The notes beneath the pieces are model-generated. The model had not been told where the DNA came from. It did no database searches and saw nothing but the letters and a program-made list of their open reading frames with translations. Source: a virus. From it: a DNA stretch of 41,035 nucleotides. Positions 22,088 through 41,035 of this stretch are shown here, one piece after another. The translations under genes were made by a program, and so were the position numbers. Position 1 is the stretch's first letter. Each line of letters starts with the position of its first letter. Where the stretch lies: positions 1 to 41,035 of IMG/VR virus record IMGVR_UViG_3300036791_000364; one strand, 5' to 3'.

Positions 22088-22091
<4 letters not shown>

Positions 22092-22312
22092 CGGCTGAAC
22101 ACGTTGTCGACGAAAAAGCTTTCGGCCGTGACGCCAAGTGCGTCAGCGATCGACTCCAACGTCGTCATCGCCGGCATTGCTTTTCCGTTTTCCCAACGAC
22201 TGATTTGCGCGTCGGCGACATCGATCCGCTTTGCAAGTTCGGTTTGAGTCAAGCCCGAACGCAAGCGTGCATCCCGTATCCGACGCCCGACGCGTCCACG
22301 TAAATCGTTCAT
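22088..22312 (-). CDS. HTH (XRE) repressor candidate
   Basis: A 74-aa leftward gene, the only leftward gene supported in the window. Residues about 12-66 form an XRE helix-turn-helix (IRDARLRSGLTQTELAKRID, VADAQISRWENGKAMPAMTT). There is no extra dimerisation or cleavage domain, so it is a minimal repressor. It is divergent from a Cro-like gene across an operator-like region. Its stop and the holin-like stop share the palindrome CTAG (22088-22091). GGGG lies about seven bases before its ATG on the minus strand. Confidence 0.8.
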
Positions 22313-22692
22313 GTAGCCCCATCTTGACGTGCGGACCTAAGGCTTGCCACCTTAGCGCATGTTGTTTGTTAGTTAGTTCCCTTGCCAGCCGTTCTCGAAA
22401 CCCGCCAAAAGCGGTCGACTCAACATTTGTCCGCTTGACCCTAGACCGCAAGACGATTTGGTGGCAATGTTGTGGCCGCGCCGCCGGCTAGGGATGGCGA
22501 CGTCGGCACAAAAGCCCCGGAAAATGGGAGGATGAAGCGATGTCCGACAGCGCGCTCGAAACGCTCTTGGCCGGGCGGCGGATTAGAAACATTTCCGTCC
22601 AAATACCGGGTTCGTGGTGCGCCGACGATGCACGTGTGCGCCGACGGCGCACTTATGCAAAGGCGGCACACGTGCGATCGTCGCGCCCCGTT
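22313..22692. promoter_or_regulatory. Genetic switch region between divergent regulators
   Basis: Candidate operators include CTAAGG/CCTTAG (22337-22342 with 22350-22355), AAGCGGTC and GACCGCAAG half sites between about 22409 and 22450, a CCCCGGAAAATGGGAGG box (22515-22531) related to one ahead of the terminase, and a nested inverted repeat (22623-22683) that includes a 7-bp stem, GTGCGCC with GGCGCAC (22636-22652). If the Cro-like gene begins at 22693 all of this is non-coding. Promoters for both directions must lie here, but no consensus pair is clear. Confidence 0.55.
22623..22683. repeat. Nested inverted repeat just before the Cro-like gene
   Basis: CGACGAT...GCACGTGTG occurs at 22623-22638 and again, inverted with one inserted base, at 22667-22683, enclosing the 22636-22652 hairpin. 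Bases 22621-22635 are the exact reverse complement of 4957-4971. It lies 9 nt before the 22693 ATG, matching the position of the 1214-1268 element before the terminase start. Confidence 0.6.
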
Positions 22693-22965
22693 ATGGAAGC
22701 CGAGAAAAACTTCCGGAAGGTGCGAATCGGGGCGAATCTTCGCCGTCTGCGACTTGACGCCAAGCTAAGCCAAAGGCAAGTCGCCGACTATCTCACCGAA
22801 AAGTCGCCATCGGGCGCGGTCGTCTTACGCGAACACGTGTCGGTCTGGGAACAGGGCAACAAAGAACCGCTAGGCGGGACGGTAGAACGCTTGGCGGACC
22901 TATTCCAATGCGACCCCGGCGAGTTTTACCGACCGCTCAACGGCACCGGCACGCCGGCGGATTAG
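22693..22965 (+). CDS. Cro-like HTH regulator
   Basis: From ATG 22693 the product is 90 aa, with an XRE-type HTH at residues about 15-70 (GANLRRLRLDAKLSQRQVAD, VSVWEQGNKEPLGGTVERLA) and a short acidic end. It is the first rightward early gene and faces the repressor, as Cro does. A longer start at 22540 has GGGAGG eight bases upstream, but it would translate the palindromic element into a segment with no HTH similarity. From 22693 there is no ribosome site, so a leaderless mRNA is possible. The start is unresolved. Confidence 0.72.
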   Translation: MEAEKNFRKVRIGANLRRLRLDAKLSQRQVADYLTEKSPSGAVVLREHVSVWEQGNKEPLGGTVERLADLFQCDPGEFYRPLNGTGTPAD

Positions 22966-24991: not shown

Positions 24992-25411
24992 ATGGGCGAC
25001 GGTGGGCAATGTCCGCTATGCCGGCGCCAAGCCGACGAACTATGCGAGTCCGACGCGGCCGGCGCGGTTTGTTGCGTCGCTTGCCATTGCAAGGCGTCGC
25101 CGCCGCGCCGGCGGGTCCATTGCCGCAAGCCGCCGGCGCCCAAGCCGGCGCCCGACCCGAAGCCGGGCACGTACGCGTACCGCGTGCGCCACGTGTGGCA
25201 GGCGATCGAACGGACGACCGGCCACAAGCCGGCGTACCTCAGCCGCGATTGGATCGGCGCGGATTGCCCGGTCGGGTGCGGCGGCACCGTCGCCGTCCAG
25301 TTCCTAGACAACCCGCCGCGGATTCGGATCGCGGCGACGACCGACTACGACCGGCCCGACCAATGTTCGCGGGGATGTCCCGGCGACCGGATTTTCAAGG
25401 CGTTGACGTGA
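24992..25411 (+). CDS. Zinc-knuckle protein of the replication/recombination region
   Basis: A 139-aa protein with two cysteine clusters: CPLCRRQADELC...CCVACHC at residues 7-34, and DCPVGCGGTV...CSRGCPGD at about 92-132. A Pro/Lys linker joins them. The second part resembles zinc-binding modules of primase-like proteins, but no catalytic part is visible. The likely role is DNA or RNA binding. Confidence 0.6.
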   Translation: MGDGGQCPLCRRQADELCESDAAGAVCCVACHCKASPPRRRVHCRKPPAPKPAPDPKPGTYAYRVRHVWQAIERTTGHKPAYLSRDWIGADCPVGCGGTVAVQFLDNPPRIRIAATTDYDRPDQCSRGCPGDRIFKALT

Positions 25412-26202
25412 CCGAATACAGCGACGACGACTTCGAACGCGAAGCCCGCGACAACGACCGCGCCAACGGCAAGCCGCGACCCAAGGGCAAGATTCCGTAT
25501 CGGCCCGACCGGGCGGCGACGTTGCCCGAATGGCGCGAATGGCTGTCGAACGCGTTGGGATTGCCGCCCGAAGTTCGCGTCGAAACCATCTTGCGAAGCG
25601 GGCTGGACGACACCGACCCGTTGACGATCGTGTTGTCGAACGGCGTCAAGATGCGATGCCCGCACCAACGCCGGTTGCAAATACCGGCGGCGCTGCAAGC
25701 GTTCGTCGCGTCGACGTCGGCCGGGGTCGCGCAACCCAACCGGCTGAGCCAAGCCGAAGCCGGCGACGTGTTCGTCGCGTTGTGCGTGATCGGGACGACG
25801 CCCGGCGCCGCCGACCCGGCGGCCGACTTGCACGAACACTTGGAAGGGTTCGTCAAGCTGGCCGAAACGGTCGATTCGTCGTTGGACGCCGAACACCGAT
25901 ACGCGACGATCGCCGACGTCAAGGCCCGCGTCCCGTTCGATCGCACCGCGATCGACGCGATGCGCCACGGGCTGTTCCCGCGCCCGGTCGTCGTCGACGA
26001 CGGCGTGATCGGCCGCCGCTACGTCCGGGCGTCGGAATGGATCACTTATCTACGGCATTTCGTTGGGCAGACGGTCGACCCGTCGGCGCTCGTGGCCCGG
26101 ATGGCCGAAATCGGGTCGGAACGGTTCCACCCGCAAGCGTGGAATCTCGACCGTTCGCACAAGCACAACGTCGTTCTTTATTCGTTGCCGGAAGACCTAT
26201 GA
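25408..26202 (+). CDS. 264-aa early protein, possible replication factor
   Basis: A protein from GTG 25408 (four-base overlap with the previous gene). The first 45 residues are charged (TEYSDDDFEREARDNDR, KPRPKGKIPYRPDR). The rest is mixed, with GLDDTDPLTIVLSNGVKMRC (about 65-85), a helical middle and a C-terminal helix-turn-like region (RRYVRASEWITYLRHFVG). I recognise no family. A large inverted repeat begins one base after its stop, so it could act on that site, for example as an initiator or regulator; this is inference from position. Confidence 0.6.
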   Translation: MTEYSDDDFEREARDNDRANGKPRPKGKIPYRPDRAATLPEWREWLSNALGLPPEVRVETILRSGLDDTDPLTIVLSNGVKMRCPHQRRLQIPAALQAFVASTSAGVAQPNRLSQAEAGDVFVALCVIGTTPGAADPAADLHEHLEGFVKLAETVDSSLDAEHRYATIADVKARVPFDRTAIDAMRHGLFPRPVVVDDGVIGRRYVRASEWITYLRHFVGQTVDPSALVARMAEIGSERFHPQAWNLDRSHKHNVVLYSLPEDL

Positions 26203-26307
26203 CTTGTACCCGCGTACCACGTGTACTGAGTTATACGCGTATAAAGGATTACCTTGGTGGACACGCGTGCGTGTGTAATACAAGTACACGCGGTACGCGG
26301 GTACAAG
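26203..26307. repeat. 105-nt inverted repeat with GTAC iterations, candidate origin or switch
   Basis: The 25-nt arms 26203-26227 and 26283-26307 match as inverted repeats at 24 of 25 positions. Each arm carries three GTAC units spaced 8-9 nt apart (26206, 26214, 26223; 26284, 26293, 26301). In the middle lie the AT-rich 14-nt palindrome TTATACGCGTATAA (26231-26244) and a CACGCGTG palindrome (26262-26269). This is the strongest symmetry in the window and is non-coding. Options are a replication origin, an operator/promoter for the next operon, or a transcription hairpin. Confidence 0.75.
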
Positions 26308-26323
26308 GCGGAGGGCGCCTCCG

Positions 26324-26548
26324 GTGAGCGCCCAACCCACACGATGCCCGTTTTGCAACCGCGAACGCCCGGCGCATAAGGCGATTCTCGCCAGCGACGT
26401 CCGCGTTTGCGGCGAGTGTTGGGGGTGGGCTTACAAGAACCCGAAGGTGGCGACGGCGTTGGGCTACGCGGTCATTGCCGGTCATCCGTTCGCGCTTGGA
26501 CGTATACGTCGCCCGCCGTGGGCGGAGGATGCCGCGGCCCATGTCTGA
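26324..26548 (+). CDS. Small zinc-finger protein
   Basis: A 74-aa protein with CPFCNRERPAHKA and VCGECWGWA, forming a CxxC...CxxC zinc site at residues 8-33, then a small helical part and a basic stretch. GTG start after GGAGGGCGCC. First gene after the inverted repeat, so its transcription may be governed by it. Confidence 0.65.
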   Translation: MSAQPTRCPFCNRERPAHKAILASDVRVCGECWGWAYKNPKVATALGYAVIAGHPFALGRIRRPPWAEDAAAHV

Positions 26549-30866: not shown

Positions 30867-31192
30867 AAAAGCGCGACGTCGGAAGCCATTTCGTCGACGT
30901 CCGCGGCAAGCGGAACCGCTTCGGCACCAAGCGTCAAGGCGACGGGCCGACGATTGTCCCGATGCGCCCGGTCGACGGGGTTGGCCGCAACCCGCGCGAA
31001 CGGTTCGCCGGCGCGTTGCCAGTCACGGCGCACCAACAGCCGGTCTTGGACGCGATCCGCGCCGGCGTGACGTCGCCGGTCGCGATCGGGCGGAGGTTGG
31101 GCCGGTCGGGGTCGTCCGTGTCCGCCACGCTGTACGCGCTGGCCGACCGCGGGTTGATCGAACGTCGCGCCGACGGCTGGCGGATGCCGTGA
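30863..31192 (+). CDS. Winged-helix DNA-binding protein
   Basis: A 109-aa protein. The N-terminus is basic (KKRDVGSHFVDVRGKRNRFG). The C-terminal half is a compact winged helix (QPVLDAIRAGVTSPVAIGRR, GSSVSATLYALADRGLIERR, then the wing DGWRMP). It may regulate the early operon or act with RusA, whose start overlaps its stop. Confidence 0.65.
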   Translation: MKKRDVGSHFVDVRGKRNRFGTKRQGDGPTIVPMRPVDGVGRNPRERFAGALPVTAHQQPVLDAIRAGVTSPVAIGRRLGRSGSSVSATLYALADRGLIERRADGWRMP

Positions 31193-31671
31193 AACGCGGG
31201 TTGTCGTTCACCGTGATTGGCCGGCCGGCGCCCGGCGGGTCAAAGCGCGCGTTCGTCGACAAGGCGGGCCACGCCCGCGTCACCGAAGACGCGAAGCGCA
31301 ACAAGCCGTGGCGCGCGTTGATCGCCGCCGCGGCCGTCGAAGCGATGGCCGACCGCGACTTGTTCGCCGGCCCGCTGGCGCTCGACGTCCGGTTTTACGT
31401 CGCGCGCCCGGTCGGCCATTTCGGGTCGGGTCGCAACCGCGAAGTCGTGCGCCCGGCGGCGCCGGCGTTCCCGGCGGTGCGACCGGACGTGACGAAGTTG
31501 TTGCGGGCGCTCGAAGACGCGTTGACCGGGCTTGTCTGGCGCGACGACGCCCAAGTCGTGATGCAAACGGCGGCGAAGCGTTACGGCAACCCGGAACGCG
31601 CCGAAGTCCGCATCGACACGATCGACTATTGGGTGGCCGACGAACGTCTGTTCGCCGCCGGCGCGCGATGA
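31189..31671 (+). CDS. rusA: RusA-type Holliday junction resolvase
   Basis: A 160-aa protein with the RusA family plan: N-terminal strand FTVIGRPAPGGSKRAFVDK, strand LALDVRFYVARP, then VRPDVTKLLRALEDALTGLV followed by WRDDAQVVMQTAAKRY. The Asp residues in RPD, LED and RDDAQ correspond to the acidic residues that bind metal in the family. It cuts recombination or packaging intermediates. GTG 31189 overlaps the winged-helix gene. Confidence 0.85.
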   Translation: MKRGLSFTVIGRPAPGGSKRAFVDKAGHARVTEDAKRNKPWRALIAAAAVEAMADRDLFAGPLALDVRFYVARPVGHFGSGRNREVVRPAAPAFPAVRPDVTKLLRALEDALTGLVWRDDAQVVMQTAAKRYGNPERAEVRIDTIDYWVADERLFAAGAR

Positions 31672-32834: not shown

Positions 32835-33068
32835 ATGACCAACACCGCCAACACCACGCCGGCCAGCGCCGCGGGCACCAAGCCCGCGGCGTCGCCGCGT
32901 CCGGTCGGGCGCCCACGGATCGGCGAAGCCGTCCACGTCCGCTTGCCGGCCGAACTGGCGACAGCGATCGACGCCGCCGCCGCCAAGCGCGGCCAAAGCC
33001 GATCCGACGCCATCCGCGAAGCCCTAGAACGTGCGTTCGTATCCGACGCGCCCAAGGTGGCGTCGTGA
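32835..33068 (+). CDS. Ribbon-helix-helix DNA-binding protein
   Basis: A 77-aa protein. After an Ala/Thr/Pro-rich leader, residues about 27-68 form a CopG-like ribbon-helix-helix (GEAVHVRLPAELATAIDAAA, KRGQSRSDAIREALERAF). The stop overlaps the integrase GTG. A small DNA-binding protein made together with an integrase may control its gene or set recombination direction. Confidence 0.7.
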   Translation: MTNTANTTPASAAGTKPAASPRPVGRPRIGEAVHVRLPAELATAIDAAAAKRGQSRSDAIREALERAFVSDAPKVAS

Positions 33069-34690
33069 TCCCCGCGTTCATCTACGCGGCCAAGTCGACG
33101 ACCGACACGCACGATTCGATCCCCGACCAAATCGTCGACGCCCGCGACGTGATCGCGCGCAACCCTGAATGGGTCGACTACGCCGAACCGTTCACCGACG
33201 AAACGTTCAGCGCATACACCGGGCCACGCGGGCCGGCGCTGGCCGACGTCATGGCCGCCGCCGCCAAAGCCGCCGCCGAACACGGCGAAGCCCGGATCGT
33301 CGTCCAACGTTCCGACCGCGTCGCCCGCGGCGACGGGCGCACCGCGCCGCACCTAGTCGAATACGTCTTGCAAGGCCGGCGCGCCGGCGTCCAGTTCGCG
33401 GCCAAGTTCGACCCGCAAGCGTTCGACGCCGCCGGCGGGCTGACGATGTCCGCCGTGTCGGGCGACCGCGCCCACGACGACAGCAAGGTCAAAGCCGAAT
33501 CCGTGTCGCGCGGGATGCGCCGGCGCAAGACCGAACGCGGCTTGCACAACGGCGCCGGGATCGAAAAGCTTGGCTACCGCATCCCGCGCCATCCCGACGG
33601 CACTATCAAACGTGAAGCGCCGCGCGAAATCGACAGCGCCGGCGCGCGCTTGATCCGCCGCATCGCCGACGCCGCGCTGGCCGGCATCAGCCAAAAACAG
33701 ATCGCCCGCGAACTGAACGACGACGGCGTCCCGACCAACAAGGGCGGGCGCTGGCGCCAAGCGACCGTGCGCCGCATCCTCTACGACCCGTATTACGCCG
33801 GGTATCTCCGCGTCGATACCGCGCTTCGCAACAAGACGCCGTCCGCCGACGAACAGCTAGTCAAGGGCCAGCACGAAGCGATCATCAGCTTGGACGAATG
33901 GCGTCGAATCATCGAAATAAACAAGCGCCGGCGCACCAACGGCGACGGCCAGCCCGGCCGCACATCCGCGCGCAACGCCCTATTCACCCACAAGCATTTG
34001 CGATGTGGGCGGTGCGGCGCCGCGATGGGCGCGCGGTACAAGCCCGGGCGCAAAACCGATTGGTACAAGTACGTGTGCGCCACCCACGAACTGGACCGCC
34101 ACGCGTGCGACATGCCGTACGTCGACGCCGCCGCCGTCGAACGCGCGATGCTCGACTTTCTCGAAACGCACCCGGGCGTGTTGGCGTCGCACATCCACGC
34201 CGCGCTTGAATCGATGTCGGAATCCCGGGCGGTCACGGGCGACCGCTTGGCCGAAGTCGAACGCGACCTAGCGAAGCTGGACGCGCGCCGCGATCGGCTG
34301 GCCGCCGACTATCGCGCCGGCGACTTGCCGGCCAACCTGTACACCGAAGAACGCGAAACGCTGGCCGCCGAAACGCTCGCCGCCCGCGCCCAAGCCGACC
34401 AACTTCGCGGCCGCGCCGACGAACTGACAAACGCGCTCGACGACGACCAAATCAACGACGCCGTCGCGACCGTGATGGAACGCATCGCCGCCGTCGTCGC
34501 CGACGCCGGCCGGATCGAAACCGCCCGCAACGTGATCCGCCAAGCGTGGCCGACGATCGCGTTGCGGTACCACGACGGCCGGATCGACTTCGACCTTGGC
34601 GACGTATCGCCCGGATTTACGGCCGCTCTAGCGTCCACAAACGATTACCGCGGCTTGCCGTTGTTGTCGTTTATGGACACGCCCGCATAG
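33065..34690 (+). CDS. int: Large serine integrase
   Basis: A 541-aa serine recombinase for phage integration. The catalytic N-terminal domain starts IPAFIYAAKSTTDTHDSIPD; Ser11 is the candidate nucleophile and the Arg normally two residues before it is Ala9, followed by Lys10. RSDRVARGDG holds further active-site Arg residues. A recombinase domain (LNDDGVPTNKGGRWRQATVR), a zinc ribbon (CGRCGAAMGARYK, then C.....C) and a long coiled coil follow, as in large serine integrases. It starts on a GTG overlapping the ribbon-helix-helix stop. Confidence 0.92.
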   Translation: MIPAFIYAAKSTTDTHDSIPDQIVDARDVIARNPEWVDYAEPFTDETFSAYTGPRGPALADVMAAAAKAAAEHGEARIVVQRSDRVARGDGRTAPHLVEYVLQGRRAGVQFAAKFDPQAFDAAGGLTMSAVSGDRAHDDSKVKAESVSRGMRRRKTERGLHNGAGIEKLGYRIPRHPDGTIKREAPREIDSAGARLIRRIADAALAGISQKQIARELNDDGVPTNKGGRWRQATVRRILYDPYYAGYLRVDTALRNKTPSADEQLVKGQHEAIISLDEWRRIIEINKRRRTNGDGQPGRTSARNALFTHKHLRCGRCGAAMGARYKPGRKTDWYKYVCATHELDRHACDMPYVDAAAVERAMLDFLETHPGVLASHIHAALESMSESRAVTGDRLAEVERDLAKLDARRDRLAADYRAGDLPANLYTEERETLAAETLAARAQADQLRGRADELTNALDDDQINDAVATVMERIAAVVADAGRIETARNVIRQAWPTIALRYHDGRIDFDLGDVSPGFTAALASTNDYRGLPLLSFMDTPA

Positions 34691-34733: not shown

Positions 34734-34809
34734 CGCAATGTATTGTGCGACGCGACGCCGACGACGGCGATCAAATACAAGCGCCAATTCCCGGGCCGTC
34801 CGCCCGCTA

Positions 34810-34857
34810 CCCATTGGCCGGCGCGGACGGTTCGGGGATGGCGAAGCCAATGGGAGG
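34810..34857 (+). promoter_or_regulatory. Hairpin overlapping a ribosome site
   Basis: CCCATTGGC (34810-34818) pairs perfectly with GCCAATGGG (34846-34854). The right arm overlaps the first bases of GGGAGG (34852-34857), the ribosome site for the ATG at 34862. It could limit translation of the next operon, similar to the hairpin at 22985. Confidence 0.45.
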
Positions 34858-40218: not shown

Positions 40219-41035
40219 TGCTCAAACGCGTTTGGATTCCAAGCCCGAATCATTCGTCGCGCCAAGGGGCAACAGTCAGAATTTTGGTACTTCATACGGC
40301 TGAAGGCGCGCTCACTTTTCAGTCGCTTGGAAATTTTTTTAGTTCAAGCGCGGCGGGCGTTTCAAGTCACGTCGGGATCGACGACACGCCGAACACGATC
40401 GGCGAATACGTCCGCGCCGACAAAGCGTGGACATGCGCCAACTACAACCCCGTCAGCGTCAACGCGGAGCTTTGCGGCTTCGCGTCGTGGGGTCCGGACG
40501 ATTGGGCAAAACACGAAGTCATGCTGTCCAACACGGCCAAATGGGTTCGCGAAGAATGTGACCGCTACGGAATCCCGTGCGTCGCGCTGACACCATCGCA
40601 AGCCCAAGGCGGCGGCCGCGGCGTTTGTCAACACGCCGATCTAGGAAGTGCAGGCGGCGGACATTGGGATTGCGGGCCACACTTCCCGCTATCGGACGTC
40701 TTGCGGATGGCGAACGGCCAAGCGCCGGCGTCAACGCCGACACCACCAAAACAGGGGGATCAAAATATGGTCGCGTCGGGCGTCGCCGACAACGGCACCA
40801 CCCACGTCTTTTGGGCGGATGACGACAAGCAAACCGTCCGATTCCGCTATCAGCAAAAAGGCAAACACGAATGGGTCGACGGCGGCGTGCTAGCCAAAGC
40901 GCCGAAGAAAATCGCCGGTCTATCCGCCACCAAAACGGCGACCGGCACGCTCGAACTGTTCGCCCGATACGAAGACGCGTCGGTCGCGCACGTGTGGCAA
41001 AACGCCGGCAAGTCCGCGTGGTCGGGCGGCGAAGC
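40218..41035 (+). CDS. Endolysin, N-acetylmuramoyl-L-alanine amidase (continues at 1)
   Basis: The 5' part of a circular 287-aa lysin. Residues about 15-160 are an Amidase_2/PGRP-type zinc amidase: RILVLHTAEGA (His26), SSHVGIDD (His51), NYNPVSVNAELCGFA, and GVCQHADLGSAGGG (His139) then HWDCGPHFPL, which includes the late Cys152 or Asp151 region. It cuts the sugar-peptide bond of peptidoglycan. A linker (STPTPPKQGDQ) leads to the C-terminal repeat domain encoded across the joint. The ATG shares one base with the previous stop. Confidence 0.9.
   Translation, partial: MLKRVWIPSPNHSSRQGATVRILVLHTAEGALTFQSLGNFFSSSAAGVSSHVGIDDTPNTIGEYVRADKAWTCANYNPVSVNAELCGFASWGPDDWAKHEVMLSNTAKWVREECDRYGIPCVALTPSQAQGGGRGVCQHADLGSAGGGHWDCGPHFPLSDVLRMANGQAPASTPTPPKQGDQNMVASGVADNGTTHVFWADDDKQTVRFRYQQKGKHEWVDGGVLAKAPKKIAGLSATKTATGTLELFARYEDASVAHVWQNAGKSAWSGGE
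40828..41035. repeat. Right copy of the terminal redundancy
   Basis: Same 208 nt as the left end, with C at 40946 and C at 40952 in place of G119 and T125. It lies inside the endolysin C-terminal domain. The circular unit is therefore about 40,827 nt. Confidence 0.95.

Follow-up and report, generated by a model that had tools for sequence, protein, structure and literature searches.

The DNA analysed here (the window) is the whole of IMG/VR record IMGVR_UViG_3300036791_000364, a complete virus record of 41,035 bases. It contains a 105-nt inverted repeat, consisting of two 25-nt arms and a 55-nt loop with the symmetry axis at 26255, which occupies the 121-nt gap between a gene for a 264-aa protein and the next gene of an early operon encoded on one strand. 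This is the one sizeable gap in the operon, whose genes otherwise overlap. The element begins at the base after the TGA (26200-26202) of the 264-aa gene, and the gene that follows starts with GTG at 26324, preceded by a GGAGG ribosome site (26310-26314). An earlier note on this DNA had described the repeat as starting directly after the stop codon of an unrecognised gene and as lying ahead of a coupled operon, and both descriptions hold. The note had named coding arms as evidence against its reading, but the arms are not coding: no credible gene model extends past 26202 before the next one begins at 26324. The features of the locus are shown in Table 1.

Table 1. Coordinates of the element, its neighbours and other features of the window, and of candidate origins in other phages
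Feature	Position	Strand	Remarks
13-nt CGCGTACCGCGTG, complement of a right-arm stretch	25174..25186	+	inside gene 24992-25411, about 1 kb upstream
Orphan gene, 264 aa, candidate origin-binding initiator	25408..26202	+	directly upstream of the element
Left arm, proposed iteron set 1	26203..26227	+	24/25 complementary to right arm
Loop, 55 nt, proposed unwinding region	26228..26282		45% GC vs 64% for the genome; 70% alternating purine-pyrimidine steps
Perfect 14-nt palindrome TTATACGCGTATAA	26231..26244		inside the loop
17-nt alternating purine-pyrimidine run ACACGCGTGCGTGTGTA	26261..26277		tied longest in the genome
Right arm, proposed iteron set 2, inverted orientation	26283..26307	-	24/25 complementary to left arm
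Gene for a zinc-ribbon-like protein of 74 aa with cysteine pairs, first past the element; starts the next coupled operon	26324..26548	+	weak sub-threshold zinc-finger matches only
RusA resolvase	31189-31671
Large serine recombinase	33065-34690
Candidate origin in phage L104	7567-7783
Candidate origin in phage L039	36990-37246
Candidate origin in phage L116	3985-4230
Candidate origin in phage L125	3673-3780
Candidate origin in phage L120	4546-4640
Candidate origin in phage L108	4101-4227

Inverted repeats were scored by adding 1 for each matching position and subtracting 2 for each mismatch. The element, in which the sole arm mismatch is between A at 26219 and C at 26291, reached a score of 22, compared with 14 for the runner-up inverted repeat in the genome and with best scores of 11-17 per shuffle in 200 dinucleotide shuffles of the genome. 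GTAC starts at 26206, 26214 and 26223 in the left arm (steps of 8 and 9 nt) and at 26284, 26293 and 26301 in the right arm (steps of 9 and 8 nt). The earlier note was therefore correct on the arms, which it had reported to match at 24 of 25 positions, and on the three GTAC units in each at a spacing of 8-9 nt. GTAC triples within 25 nt were found twice in the genome, once in each arm, against a mean of 0.08 in the shuffles. GTAC is its own reverse complement, so that a triple in the left arm entails one in the right arm, and only three of the six words are independent. The autocorrelation of the window arm peaked at lags 8 and 9 (p about 0.01, letter shuffling). Several copies of a short site at regular spacing, as seen in the element, are a general feature of iteron origins. 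No second copy of the element was found in the genome, and no rival iteron array was found elsewhere in the window. The right-arm 12-mers ACGCGGTACGCG and CACGCGGTACGC match exactly on the other strand at the 13-nt stretch inside gene 24992-25411 (Table 1), which is possibly an outlying binding site or a chance match.

The loop is unusual in two respects. Its GC content falls within the lowest 0.4% of same-length genome windows and its purine-pyrimidine alternation within the top 1.3%, and no other 105-nt stretch of the genome alternates as strongly between purines and pyrimidines as the neighbourhood of the element. The loop thereby provides an adjacent AT-rich region; a region of this kind, or one otherwise unwound, is another general feature of iteron origins. 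Both the AT-rich loop and the 17-nt alternating run had been missed by the earlier note, which placed the arms around the 14-nt palindrome. This placement was not correct, as TTATACGCGTATAA lies off the symmetry axis, separated by 3 nt from the left arm but by 38 nt from the right.

The 264-aa protein is indeed unrecognised, as had been noted before. It gave no match in Pfam, PHROG, NCBIfam or PDB sequences and had no homologue in phages, plasmids or viral contigs. None was convincing in about 700 actinobacterial genomes, in which the few weak matches were wrong-frame or compositional noise. Its similarity to 20 phage replication proteins was not significant, and the primase-polymerase/SF3 (D5-type) helicase of pRN1/SaPI-type origins was not recognised in it. 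Structure prediction gave no confident fold for the whole protein or for its C-terminal part, and a fold search is meaningless at such confidence. A low-confidence prediction places helix-helix-strand-strand-helix at residues 168-218, and the modelled C-terminal part is possibly a winged helix-turn-helix (HTH).

The phage that carries the element is a temperate tailed phage of the actinobacterial type. Its contig closes as a circle, since the ends overlap by 208 nt with two mismatches when compared (1-208 / 40828-41035); the mismatches suggest strain variation within the sample. The capsid is 53% identical to that of Arthrobacter phage Eileen, with a head module common to both, and ~52-57% identical to those of prophages of Streptomyces, Actinoplanes, Pseudonocardia and others. 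An SPP1-like portal, a RusA resolvase and a large serine recombinase are also encoded. All gene models lie on the + strand except a Cro/CI-like HTH gene (22088-22312), which faces an HTH gene on the + strand (22540-22965), and this divergent region (22088-22540) is probably the immunity switch. Just 3' of the serine recombinase gene lies an imperfect 17-nt inverted repeat (82%; 34787-34839), a candidate attachment site region. The early operon also encodes a small double-psi beta-barrel protein (lytic transglycosylase-like, PF03330; 27091-27468), apart from the lysis and tail genes. No primase or helicase family was recognisable among the phage proteins, and a simple pattern search found the Walker A motif in none of the predicted proteins of the window.

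Searches with proteins, arms and geometry found no relative covering the element region. Relatives with a terminase 69-80% identical are present in IMG/VR only as 6-17 kb fragments from the other side of the genome, and the close relatives (L003-L007 and L037) are fragments of the head region that do not include the element region. Neighbouring proteins gave only distant relatives, for a 297-aa protein, and these did not share the neighbourhood. The arm sequence had no match in viral contigs. The GTAC geometry was absent from 396 and 299 actinobacterial genomes; across 2.9 million viral contigs, a query for six GTAC (8/9 ... 9/8, with a 42-72-nt gap) returned one contig, the unrelated, podovirus-like L104. 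More than 100 viral stretches showed a 9/9-spaced GTAC pattern; many of them occurred more than once on a contig and resembled coding repeats. Periodicity of GTAC by itself is therefore no evidence. It is the position and symmetry of the element that matter, and spacing alone is weak evidence.

In L104, the GTAC words are intergenic and accompany an inverted repeat with 25-nt arms (GTACCACCGTACCACCCGTACCACC) and a 50-nt loop. This region immediately follows the gene for a 704-aa DNA-primase-like protein (PHROG, 1e-40). In Eileen, words of the TTAGGGACA type form an inverted array 369 nt past the primase-polymerase/D5 helicase gene. The layout was tested on 23 phage regions around Eileen- or L104-like replication genes, plus L104 and Eileen, by locating, within about 6 kb in each case, the highest-scoring inverted repeat whose loop measured 20-150 nt. 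The comparison set was picked after the first examples had been seen. A score of at least 14 was reached in ten regions, and in eight of the ten the repeat follows the replication gene, with 8-369 nt between it and the stop: Cain (+149), CrimD (+155), Marshawn (+138; these three are close kin), phiJH1301-2 (+151), Djokovic (+60), Eileen (+369), L104 (+128) and NatCom_27610 (+8 past a primase/helicase gene, with 20-nt arms and a 57-nt loop). The two located elsewhere are a poly-A/T repeat upstream of the gene in SgaBSJ31 and a repeat at +1325 in PBb001. With kin counted once, six of eight lineages have the repeat in ~460 of 6100 nt, which gives a binomial probability under random placement of about 5e-6, a value that is too favourable, as it was Eileen and L104 that had led to the test. 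LP-030-2 agrees with the layout (best repeat at +82, score 12), and three repeats share the best score (12) in MT835534, one of them at +243. About a dozen other phages, among them phiC31, Dubu, BabyDaisy, London, Cruella, Visconti and Acjo_20, have no comparable repeat there.

Words repeated within the arms of several of these phages are GGCACA and AGCACAGAT (both at step 9), GGTTCT (step 8) and GTACCACC (steps 8/9). When seven arms were pooled, with those of the window and L104 left out, identity at lag 9 was 48%, compared with 22-35% at other lags. Facing runs can also be picked out by eye in Djokovic (ATTACGGCA and TGCCGTAAT around ATATATATATACG). In most such phages, the loop is extreme within its locus in either AT content or purine-pyrimidine alternation; the window loop is extreme in both. 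In phages with primase/helicase replication genes, the best long-loop inverted repeat is thus often found no more than ~400 nt 3' of that gene, with ~9-nt word repeats in its arms and a loop marked by AT content or by alternation, and the window element conforms in all these respects. Z-DNA-prone alternating loops were observed in four GC-rich phages (L104 7659-7708, L120 4561-4623, L039 37075-37106 and the window loop, 26228-26282), where they rank in the top 0.4-1.3% of windows. An alternating loop was rejected as a general rule: it is present only in the window, L104, MT835534 and Eileen, and AT-richness is found elsewhere instead. The six candidates in other phages listed in Table 1 all have facing words every ~8-11 nt just 3' of primase/helicase genes. 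To our knowledge, none of the six is annotated as an origin in its own record, and we know of no test of the arrays of Cain, CrimD, Marshawn, Djokovic or Eileen as origins.

Judged from this comparative anatomy, the element is probably the DNA replication origin of the phage, built of two inverted iteron sets that flank an unwinding region. Each arm would represent a set of three short GTAC-centred binding sites (iterons), ~8-9 nt apart, and the two sets would face each other across the easily unwound 55-nt loop. An initiator, most likely the 264-aa protein, would bind both sets; the DNA between them would then open, perhaps aided by hairpin extrusion, and the host replisome would be loaded at the opened origin. 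As the product of the neighbouring gene, the 264-aa protein is the obvious candidate for this initiator. Because the phage has no recognisable helicase or primase, we infer that the host helicase is recruited. The earlier note had offered an origin, a promoter or a switch as options. Of these, the origin is favoured because other phages share the layout 3' of a replication gene and because the stem-loop of the Sulfolobus plasmid pRN1 is required in cis, and a promoter-like site was not found. Several observations count against an origin. The upstream protein belongs to no replication family and has neither a Walker A motif nor a confident fold, no relative with the region was found, and several phages with replication genes have no such repeat. 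Cumulative GC skew, proposed in the earlier note as a check, shows no turn at 26.2 kb and was uninformative.

The same sites could instead form an operator or promoter region, in which dimers of a regulator (the 264-aa protein or another) on the GTAC sites control the operon from 26324. The element fills the one sizeable gap (121 nt) in the overlapping early operon, multiple symmetrical sites with an AT-rich spacer are typical of operators, and the winged HTH that the 264-aa protein may carry, according to the low-confidence prediction, is in line with a regulator. However, no sigma-70-like promoter was found in 26203-26323 by a search for -35/-10 hexamers at 16-18 nt, which addresses this class alone and may miss actinobacterial promoters. 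Moreover, an obvious switch region is located elsewhere, between the divergent HTH genes, and 25-nt near-perfect arms around a 55-nt loop are rare among operators. Control of the operon by the element, the main alternative to an origin, is considered unlikely. The repeat could also act as RNA, either as a hairpin that ends, processes or stabilises the operon mRNA or as a structured regulatory RNA. The folding energy is -64.5 kcal/mol for the + strand (z -10.3) and -57.4 for the - strand, and the loop contributes 12 more pairs, among them several G-U pairs, on the + strand only (loop z -2.3). Such folding is, however, expected of any near-perfect inverted repeat, and the effect of the loop is weak, as 5 of 200 shuffles were equally good. 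An intrinsic terminator is excluded because no T-run follows the right arm (GGCGGAGGGCG), and no + strand terminator-like site is listed here. At the one mismatched arm position, A is opposed to C on the + strand, whereas a G-U pair is formed on the - strand, and no Rfam family was recognised, the best being a microRNA hairpin model with 23.8 bits against a cut-off of 90. An RNA structure would also leave the GTAC iteration at 8-9 nt unexplained, and we regard a function as RNA as quite improbable.

A site for recombination or of the telomere type is very improbable, whether as an attachment site of the serine recombinase, as the termini of a miniature insertion element or as a target of protelomerase, and these readings were rejected. 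A serine recombinase is encoded in the same genome, small insertion elements typically carry long inverted repeats at their ends, and the palindrome TTATACGCGTATAA resembles protelomerase target cores. The recombinase gene is nevertheless 6.8 kb away, and attachment sites usually adjoin it, as the inverted repeat at 34787-34839 does. The element is a single copy in the genome, is flanked by no target-site duplication and has no viral or phage match. The early region contains no protelomerase-sized unknown gene, the larger genes being those for head, tail or recombinase, and the contig is self-closing through its 208-nt overlap, i.e., circular.

We return to the element as an origin. A further proposal, put forward tentatively, is that the phage may retain the facing-iteron origin layout of primase/SF3-helicase replicons while its small helicase-free initiator (the 264-aa protein) represents a new family and recruits the host helicase; the unwinding region would include an alternating purine-pyrimidine, Z-DNA-prone stretch. 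If the element is indeed an origin, an actinobacterial temperate phage would have a defined candidate origin of ~105 bp, together with a candidate new initiator family. The comparison also suggests a simple rule by which phage origins could be searched for, namely facing words every ~9 nt that flank an unusual loop and lie just 3' of a replication gene. This rule pointed to such candidates in at least seven distinct groups of phages. A small pair of origin and initiator would, in addition, be a practical plasmid seed for poorly tractable actinobacteria.

Among known systems, the lambda origin resembles the proposal in its use of a small non-helicase initiator, O, which recruits the host helicase, and in iterons that adjoin an AT-rich region. 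Its iterons lie within the O gene and are direct repeats, whereas those of the window are intergenic and face each other. The actinophage arrays of Cain, CrimD, Marshawn, Djokovic and Eileen likewise have facing words every ~9 nt around a special loop, but they differ in their words, in the identified primase/helicase upstream and in their distance of 60-370 nt past the stop, compared with 1 nt for the window element. The origins of SaPIs are located directly downstream of rep, and the C-terminal domain of the SCCmec helicase Cch2 binds required 5-nt iterons downstream of its operon, whereas inverted repeats are dispensable for the binding (PMC7581432). These origins are like the window element in lying directly 3' of the initiator gene and in having several short iterons; in contrast, their initiators are helicases, and their arrays do not form one near-perfect 25-nt inverted repeat.

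A close anatomical parallel to the stem-loop and array, which lie 1 nt past the stop of the orphan candidate-initiator gene, is offered by pRN1. This plasmid has a 100-bp stem-loop 3' of its primase/SF3-helicase gene, with a 21-nt stem and a 58-nt loop (25 and 55 nt in the window), which is the only downstream piece required for replication and still worked when moved (PMC4234260). Its authors describe no iterons, and replication is initiated by a primase-polymerase/SF3 helicase that ends in a winged helix, unlike the orphan gene of the window, which has no helicase motifs. The same authors reported a comparable stem-loop, proposed as an origin of this kind, behind the replication gene of Bordetella phage BIP-1 (PMC4234260). 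It is situated near the midpoint of that 42.6-kb genome, and the element described here is likewise located in the middle of a 41-kb genome. In form, the window element matches these counterparts and those of SaPIs and SCCmec. As no primase family was recognised and a simple pattern search gave no Walker A helicase, the phage falls outside the primase/SF3-helicase replicon family, although at the DNA level it appears to function as its members do.
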